Source of the DNA: Deltaproteobacteria bacterium | GTDB taxonomy: Bacteria; Desulfobacterota; Desulfuromonadia; Desulfuromonadales; BM103 | Length of the DNA: 20,999 bases | Direction: 5' to 3' | Assembly (NCBI GenBank): GCA_006226895.1 | Contig: SBFN01000152.1 | Span: 1-20,999, forward strand | Part shown: piece after piece, positions 17,820 through 18,812 of the stretch | Position numbering within the stretch: the stretch's first letter is position 1 | How the letters are laid out: each line of letters starts with the position of its first letter | Notes under the pieces: generated by a model | Seen by the model: the letters and a program-made list of their open reading frames with translations, nothing else | Database searches by the model: none | What the model was told of the DNA's origin: nothing | Program-made: the position numbers and the translations under genes

Positions 17820-18333
17820 GATGGGTCCTTTCTTCTGTTGTGACTATGAACTGTAATGAGAGACGCAGGTGCTGTTTGTTAATCCGACTTGTTGTAATTT
17901 CCTGTTGTTCTGCTGGGAGGCTGACACTGGCGATCTGCTGCAGAGTCGTGCTTCCCGCATGTTTTGCACTCTTGTCTTTTGGGCTGTTTAAAGTGTCCTC
18001 ATAGCATTGCTGAACGAAAGTATCTATAGCTCAATGGGTTTCATGTTAAATGAGTGCCTTTGAGAGGCGCAAGTTAATTTTTATCAGAATGGAGTGGTTA
18101 TCAGTCTTCTTTTGTCTTAGTAAGAAGAAAATTTTGTCCTTGGATGACGGGGCTGTTCCTGAGTCAGGCTCAGAATATTGTCCGCGGGGCGAAAAAAGAT
18201 TGGTGCTTGCTAATAAAAAGTTAAAATTAATTACAACAAAGGCCTACATTTTTCACCGAAAAAAACCCCAATACCCTGTAAAAACAAATATTTGCAAGTG
18301 TTAACAAAAAATGAAAATATTTTAATTTGTTTG
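17820..18333. other. Long intergenic region with no recognisable gene
   Basis: About 500 nt separate the divergent cytochrome and small-protein genes. The left half is of normal composition; from about 18180 it becomes very A/T-rich, with A- and T-tracts running up to the promoter at 18334 that could act as an UP element. An 84-codon plus-strand frame (18050-18304) has no ribosome binding site and an unlikely composition. I see no tRNA-like fold, riboswitch motif or repeat array. Confidence 0.5.
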
Positions 18334-18362
18334 TTGACATGAGTAAATTTTAATGGTAAAAG
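18334..18362 (+). promoter_or_regulatory. Sigma70-like promoter of the small membrane protein pair
   Basis: A perfect -35 TTGACA (18334-18339) is 17 nt from TAAAAG (18357-18362), with A/T tracts immediately upstream resembling an UP element. The start would be near 18369, giving a leader of about 45 nt before the first small gene. Confidence 0.6.
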
Positions 18363-18413
18363 TTTAATCAACAGTGAGGAACAACTTTAAAACCCAATCG
18401 ACAGGAGGTCGTT

Positions 18414-18560
18414 ATGAAAACTCAAAGCAATTTTATGGATACCGTAAAAAGTAGTTACATGGTCCTGATCATTGCGTTGCTCGGCATCTTCGCTTTTATC
18501 TCTGCTGTGTTGATCGCCTGGCCTGCTCTCGCTTACATCGGCGCGAAACTGTTTAACTAG
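18414..18560 (+). CDS. Small single-pass membrane protein, first of a tandem pair (48 aa)
   Basis: This 48-aa gene is easy to miss because of its length. AGGAGG precedes the ATG by about 6 nt. The product has a polar N-terminus (MKTQSNFMDTVKSSY), one hydrophobic segment of about 25 residues from Met16 on (MVLIIALLGIFAFISAVLIA) and a short conserved tail (WPALAYIGAKLFN). It is 31/48 identical, without gaps, to the product at 18618-18764. Residues 26-41 are identical in the two, and nine of those sixteen codons differ, all synonymously, which is strong evidence that both are translated and under selection. The AGGAG lies in the loop of a 4-bp CGAC/GTCG stem (18399-18411). I do not recognise the family. 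It could be a regulator of a membrane complex, a stress small protein or a type I toxin-like peptide; nothing here decides. Confidence 0.85.
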   Translation: MKTQSNFMDTVKSSYMVLIIALLGIFAFISAVLIAWPALAYIGAKLFN

Positions 18561-18581
18561 GGTCAGACTTTAACAACTAAC

Positions 18582-18599
18582 ACTCTCAGTAAAGAGAGT
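18582..18599 (+). promoter_or_regulatory. Small hairpin between the two small membrane protein genes
   Basis: ACTCTC (18582-18587) pairs with GAGAGT (18594-18599) around a 6-nt loop in the 57-nt spacer. It stands just before the second ribosome binding site. No full T-run follows, so it is more likely a processing or stability element than a terminator. Confidence 0.35.
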
Positions 18600-18617
18600 T
18601 TCCCCAGGAGGTACATC

Positions 18618-18764
18618 ATGAAAAGCGCAGCCAATATCGTCAATAACGTAAAAGCCAGTTACACTGTCGCAGTTATGGGTGTTCTCGGGGTCTTTGCTTT
18701 TATCTCGGCCGTACTGATTGCCTGGCCGGCGCTCGCCTACCTTGGCGCTAAAATGTTTAACTAG
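18618..18764 (+). CDS. Small single-pass membrane protein, second of a tandem pair (48 aa)
   Basis: This is a paralog of the preceding gene with the same length, topology and tail: MKSAANIVNNVKASY, a hydrophobic helix from about residue 17, then WPALAYLGAKMFN. CAGGAGGT lies 6 nt before the ATG. The N-terminal third has diverged most (Asn6, Val11, Lys12, Ser14, Tyr15 and Val17 are kept), while residues 26-41 and the final GAK.FN are fixed, so the helix and tail are the functional part. The gene is followed after 23 nt by an intrinsic terminator, and no second promoter is seen, so the two are probably made from one mRNA. The equal, strong ribosome binding sites suggest high and similar output, perhaps as a heteromer. 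Function unknown. Confidence 0.85.
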   Translation: MKSAANIVNNVKASYTVAVMGVLGVFAFISAVLIAWPALAYLGAKMFN

Positions 18765-18787
18765 GCATAAACCAAATAATCGAAAAG

Positions 18788-18812
18788 AGCCTCGCAAGTC
18801 GCGGGGCTTTTT
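18788..18812 (+). terminator. Terminator of the small membrane protein pair
   Basis: AGCCTCGC (18788-18795) pairs with GCGGGGCT (18801-18808), with one G-T pair and a 5-nt loop, followed by five T residues ending at 18812. It is the expected end of the short bicistronic transcript. Confidence 0.85.

Follow-up and report, generated by a model that had tools for sequence, protein, structure and literature searches.

A multi-copy pair of one-helix membrane proteins whose wider family often lies near multihaem cytochrome genes

Two small membrane protein genes in a compact unit

The window analyzed here, positions 1-20999 of contig C219, is a 20,999-nucleotide stretch from a genome of 59.9% completeness. 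It carries two adjacent genes of 48 codons, A and B, each preceded by a strong AGGAGG ribosome-binding site (Table 1). The original prediction, made from the sequence letters, had described this arrangement, and both open reading frames were found where it had placed them. Recounting also agreed with it on the relationship between the two products, which share 31 of 48 residues and are identical across residues 26-41, where 9 of the 16 codons differ, all of them synonymously. Each product was expected to have a single hydrophobic helix. In keeping with this, an AlphaFold2 model of A is one helix covering residues 2-47 (mean pLDDT 87.7), and both proteins, each shorter than 60 aa, contain a strongly hydrophobic segment. 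Protein length and the tail WPALAY..K, which had been singled out as conserved, agree in most of the alignments listed.

Table 1. Features of the A/B locus in the window
Feature	Position	Strand	Description
Conserved promoter block	18311-18369	+	A/T-rich upstream stretch, -35, and -10 with TG before it
-35 TTGACA	18334-18339	+	part of promoter block
-10 TAAAAG	18357-18362	+	17-nt spacer; extended -10 TG
Ribosome-binding site AGGAGG of A	18403-18408	+	sequence
Gene A	18414-18560	+	48 aa, one-helix membrane protein
Small hairpin between A and B	18582-18599	+	stem conserved in position
Ribosome-binding site AGGAGG of B	18606-18611	+	sequence
Gene B	18618-18764	+	48 aa, paralogue of A
Terminator-like hairpin	18784-18812	+	sequence scan

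The pair had been assigned one promoter with a perfect TTGACA and one terminator, and elements answering to both are present. A simple promoter scan did not report the A promoter because it demands T at the last -10 position; the TTGACA-17-TAAAAG arrangement was read by eye. The element is conserved in relatives, with the promoter block preceding A in 21 of 22 aligned loci as judged by eye and being most diverged in L058. A search with the pattern TTGACATNA-N8-TAATGKTAA, allowing at most one mismatch, returned 36 matches in 19 of the 22 family genomes, against a single match for the reversed control. Each of the 36 stands immediately in front of an A start, as shown by coordinates for 32 and by a start codon still visible at a contig end for four; the motif is specific to the A/B unit. 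Two weak minus-strand promoter-like sites were also seen at the locus, about as many as shuffles give. In 14 of 18 loci, 17-20 nt separate the stem of the intergenic hairpin from the B start, and the stem sequence varies between genomes while the pairing is kept.

An undescribed family under purifying selection

The original prediction recognized no known family, and we found none either. Neither A nor B had a significant match in Pfam, NCBIfam or PHROGs, where the best hits were weak or below cut-offs, and the 30 members of a wider alignment (A2) had none in Pfam. PDB chains gave no family match, and Rfam gave nothing above the gathering score, only weak sub-threshold hits with one antisense family over the terminator hairpin. 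Mpv17_PMP22, a Mbov_0395 pilin-like family and designed binding domains from the PDB were rejected as far below cut-offs or covering few residues. A literature search that included text strings from the WPALAY tail returned nothing on the family. It is undescribed in the libraries searched.

Homologues in related genomes, for which the prediction had proposed searching, were readily found. A protein search returned 321 relatives at E <= 1, and among the 120 matches listed every named relative is a ‘hypothetical protein’. The A protein alone matches 45 of the 136 genomes of the order at E <= 0.001, including all 22 of its own family (22/22), and alignment A2 matches 51 of 136 at E <= 0.01. In a draw across the phylum, 8 of 395 genomes match. 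Six are the genome of the window, four more from its order and, from the class, G335; the other two are weak matches that sit in long frames and were taken as chance. The convincing matches all fall within the class.

Purifying selection on both copies had been proposed, and pN is lower than pS in every pair compared, 153 for A and 105 for B. The median pN/pS is 0.146 for A and 0.142 for B, across pairs that are not independent of one another. Neither a lack of homologues nor a ratio near 1, two results that would have counted against the prediction, was obtained. A and B are real, conserved coding genes. A minus-strand frame also recurs over B (cluster c0); because it overlaps a conserved coding region, we judged it a reverse reading of B and no gene. 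The supposed tandem order is conserved in part: among 42 loci (the window and 41 others), A is followed by B in 25, including two with A cut by the contig start, while A stands alone in 12. One further locus has a much diverged second gene and four are cut by contig ends.

In a tree of the family, A copies form one clade (support 0.81) and B copies another (0.87), so both stem from one old duplication. Copies from tandem arrays outside the taxonomic family (L081, L075, L086, L093) fall outside both clades, and the A/B unit is one branch of a wider protein family. Two oddities were seen along the way. In the genome of the window (G000), positions 243-299 of contig C223 (L003) match A residues 10-28 at 63% identity, after which the frame departs from the family sequence; this may be another copy that is broken or was mis-sequenced. 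In P0059, a protein of 64 aa from a contig of 677 bases, the beginning of A is fused to most of B, through either recombination or an assembly artefact.

The unit recurs at conserved sites and is homogenized in two genomes

The promoter-to-terminator unit recurs at conserved, unlinked places, which account for many of the loci; others lie elsewhere (L045, L046, L047, L058 and more). Site I, that of the window, runs RNase G, radical SAM, cytochrome c, unit, rubrerythrin-like, DUF4350, PilZ, NUDIX, CLC. Site II runs UvrB, UbiD, ImcH-like, unit, NrfD, FeS, tetrahaem cytochrome, DUF2339, 8-haem cytochrome, with the unit in opposite orientation to the flanking respiratory genes, and in L286 and L287 the gene order continues to a CbcL-like gene. 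Site III consists of an Asp-Al exchanger, the unit, a response regulator and cobalt-transport genes. Pfam supplied the radical SAM, cytochrome, rubrerythrin, DUF4350, UbiD, NrfD, FeS, DUF2339, exchanger and response regulator assignments; RNase G, PilZ, NUDIX, CLC, UvrB and cobalt transport were assigned by reading of the sequences. The stretch common to the units begins just upstream of the promoter and ends at the terminator, with edges read by eye.

Two genomes, Ww219 and LH_M62, each carry the unit at sites I and II. Between these genomes identity is 70-79% for five flanking genes and 74.4% and 75.5% for units at the same site. Within a genome the site I and site II units are closer: they do not differ over 531 bp in Ww219 and share 93.9% identity over 543 positions in LH_M62. 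Since both genomes have both sites, the simplest account is that the copies were homogenized by gene conversion after the two split. The A coding sequence is 0.92-0.94 identical between sites within IMCC39146 (I/II), 4281-140 (II/III), MAG37 (IV/V) and CSMAG_2077 (I/II), and the mean for the same site between genomes is 0.836. Within-genome values are lower where site III of Dive100 or CSMAG_2077 (0.81-0.84) or site II of MAG37 (0.84-0.86) is compared. Homogenization is uneven and is clear in two genomes only. Assembly error may affect single copies, as most of these genomes are metagenome assemblies; the record of IMCC39146 carries no such label.

Other repeated sequence was observed around some units. 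The usual terminator is replaced in L048, L052 (both site I) and L054 (site II): right after the last stop codon comes a repeated stretch of over 100 bases, starting near ggcgttgcaaaaagtccgccctac, that looks like a dispersed repeat. Outside the unit, L045:8610-8751 and L053:5592-5733, from the same genome, share 142 bp at 91% identity in inverted orientation.

Relatives often lie near multihaem cytochrome genes

To describe the surroundings of the wider protein family, we fetched 51 regions outside the taxonomic family of the window and counted CXXCH haem motifs in ORFs of at least 80 aa in 49 of them. L255 and L256 had no copy above 15 bits and were dropped, and L252 and L253 overlap, sharing one copy. 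The controls were 28 regions from 14 of the same genomes (29 fetched, L271 uncounted), giving 56 windows of 10 kb that were placed by hand, many of them within three complete genomes. Haem-motif density drops from 0.81/kb in the first 2.5 kb around a copy to 0.35 at 2.5-5 kb, 0.26 at 5-7.5 kb and 0.07 at 7.5-10 kb; it is 0.027/kb in the controls. At least four motifs lie within 5 kb at 24 of 49 loci versus 1 of 56 control windows (Fisher p = 3.7e-9), and at least one at 29 of 49 versus 7 of 56; a Mann-Whitney test on the densities gives p = 2.4e-8. Shared descent among the loci makes these p values optimistic. Where copies are scattered, the locus covers more than 10 kb. Some loci score partly by construction because alignment A2 includes them; many had already been found with the window protein alone, and the neighbourhood was unused in choosing loci. 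No haem motif lies within 5 kb at 20 of 49 loci, and fewer than four do at 25 of 49.

At 12 of 40 loci, a same-strand gene with at least three haem motifs lies within 200 bp of the copy. The small gene stands 83-189 bp before a CbcL-like gene in L168, L178, L184 and L187, and it follows a tri-haem c7-type gene and/or precedes an 8-haem NapC-type gene in L171, L172, L174, L180, L181, L183, L185 and L196. In a second layout, found in L171, L172, L174, L180, L183 and L196, the copy has a tri-haem c7-type gene on one side and an 8-haem NapC/NirT-type gene on the other. A third is a cluster of a sigma-54 activator, an AVPYYG-type protein, NifX-like and zinc-ribbon proteins and a CbcL-like gene (for example L167, L190, L191, L195, L197 and L262), whose members are not all present at each locus. 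In a fourth, the copy is flanked by an ImcH-like gene on one side and an NrfD-FeS-tetrahaem operon on the other (L194, L199, L254 and site II of the own family). Copies occupy two positions in L180, L188, L189 and L196. The gene recurs in several differently built quinol-oxidase clusters.

The names ImcH-, CbcL- and Cbc4-like were assigned by features, not by orthology. The CbcL-like neighbour has nine CXXCH motifs and a hydrophobic C-terminal half, matching CbcL as described in excerpts of PMC9129911 and PMC6295460. Three hydrophobic regions, one CX3CH and five CX2CH place the ImcH-like neighbour in the range that an excerpt of PMC6295460 gives for ImcH homologues. NrfD, FeS and tetrahaem cytochrome genes are the make-up of Cbc4 (cbcSTU) in the excerpted text of PMC11434368. 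A partnership with every CbcL-like gene is ruled out by the 51 of 92 genomes that have a CbcL-like gene and no family match. Given these, and the ATP-synthase-c-like ORF found upstream in 16 of 50 CbcL-like loci (some genes counted twice), the family is not an obligate part of CbcL. The listing of upstream ORFs yields no rate, because its filter missed known small genes (L222, L223). In the maps of sites I and III, no multihaem gene lies next to the unit, and site I has a single-haem-type cytochrome c.

The AVPYYG protein (L086:11057-11398 and relatives) is about 115 aa long, has no Pfam match and recurs beside the small genes, NifX-like and zinc-ribbon proteins in respiratory clusters. The nearest known neighbours in L177, L198 and L258 are sigma-54 activators. 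As such activators lie nearby, we considered sigma-54 promoters upstream of the small genes and found no clear enrichment (4 of 73 copies versus 38 of 1460 random 250-base stretches).

A putative accessory role in quinol oxidation

Relatives of A and B often lie within clusters that pass respiratory electrons outward, and they may therefore be overlooked helper parts. We favor a reading in which A and B act as small accessory proteins to the inner-membrane quinol:cytochrome c oxidoreductases of extracellular respiration and are present in extra copies in this taxon, and put its probability at about 0.5. Weighing against it are the loci poor in haem motifs, the lack of multihaem neighbours at sites I and III, the CbcL-like genes in genomes without the family or with an ATP-synthase-c-like ORF upstream, the opposed orientation at site II and the loci next to sigma-54 activators. 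Each protein would span the membrane once, with the conserved WPALAY..K tail binding the membrane domain of a quinol-oxidizing cytochrome. Such binding would steady or tune the cytochrome, in the way that CydX acts on cytochrome bd oxidase. A higher dosage would come from the extra, separately promoted copies, and A and B would either serve different partners or form a pair. The stress or quality-control role first suggested for the pair has not fared well: nothing that we saw points there, and the neighbourhoods of the relatives point to respiratory quinol oxidases.

It is possible, if rather unlikely, that these are general small membrane proteins, serving as envelope, redox or stress factors and found near cytochromes since both are needed in the same respiratory conditions. 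About half of the loci have no nearby multihaem gene, at several sites in the own family the copies carry a promoter of their own, and the gene accompanies several unrelated enzyme types, all of which would suit such a protein. However, the 12 loci with a cytochrome gene close by on the same strand, and the steep drop of haem motifs with distance, speak for a closer tie. A wider reading, which we hold only tentatively and regard as doubtful, would make the family an interchangeable one-helix adaptor common to chemically different inner-membrane electron gates, the ImcH, CbcL, Cbc4 and NapC types. It would dock each to the quinone pool or to other gates, with a surplus supplied in this taxon through the gene-converted, separately promoted A/B cassette.

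Given its common edges at unrelated places, its identity at two sites in Ww219 and the several contigs that break at it, the discrete unit of promoter, A, B and terminator could be taken for a small mobile or repeat-like cassette that spreads itself. This is improbable: the sites are conserved between genomes, which fits old insertions homogenized later, no relatives turned up in the viral contigs, phages and plasmids searched, and the proteins are under purifying selection. A type I toxin-like or two-peptide bacteriocin-like pair, suggested by small, hydrophobic, tandem and multi-copy genes, is very improbable given the strength of purifying selection, the respiratory genes around the relatives and the want of an Rfam match above threshold or a significant Pfam, NCBIfam or PHROG match.

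In Geobacter-type bacteria, inner-membrane quinol oxidation runs through several enzymes in parallel, of which chiefly the large subunits have been described. How electrons exit the quinone pool in Geobacter-type extracellular respiration is an open question, and a conserved small protein that recurs in several quinol-oxidase clusters is a concrete candidate part.

Comparison with known systems

CydX-type small subunits are very short single-helix proteins of cytochrome bd oxidase. Compared by description, they resemble A and B in their size, their predicted single helix and, at many loci, a gene neighbourhood shared with a membrane quinol-oxidizing enzyme. Unlike CydX, A and B have no match among solved chains, lie near other partner types and form a multi-copy, separately promoted pair that is not obligate with one enzyme. 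Light-harvesting alpha and beta proteins are also single-helix proteins of about 50 aa, encoded by adjacent genes with several copies of the pair per genome; the likeness is one of layout only, and A and B have no significant Pfam match.

A further comparison is with Cbc4 (cbcSTU), CbcL and ImcH of Geobacter, whose described features are shown by neighbours at site II and in relatives. The excerpted descriptions of these enzymes (PMC9129911, PMC11434368, PMC6295460) mention no small one-helix subunit. Concerted evolution of bacterial paralogues, as presented in an excerpt of PMC6053082, involves rRNA operons and 26 genes. The A/B unit differs from those cases in being a two-gene mini-operon of about 0.5 kb with its own promoter and terminator, for which the pattern is clear in two genomes only. 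It shares with them the central feature that paralogues are closer within a genome than orthologues are between genomes. A promoter-to-terminator unit homogenized at fixed, unlinked sites would be an unusual instance of concerted evolution in a bacterial protein-coding mini-operon.
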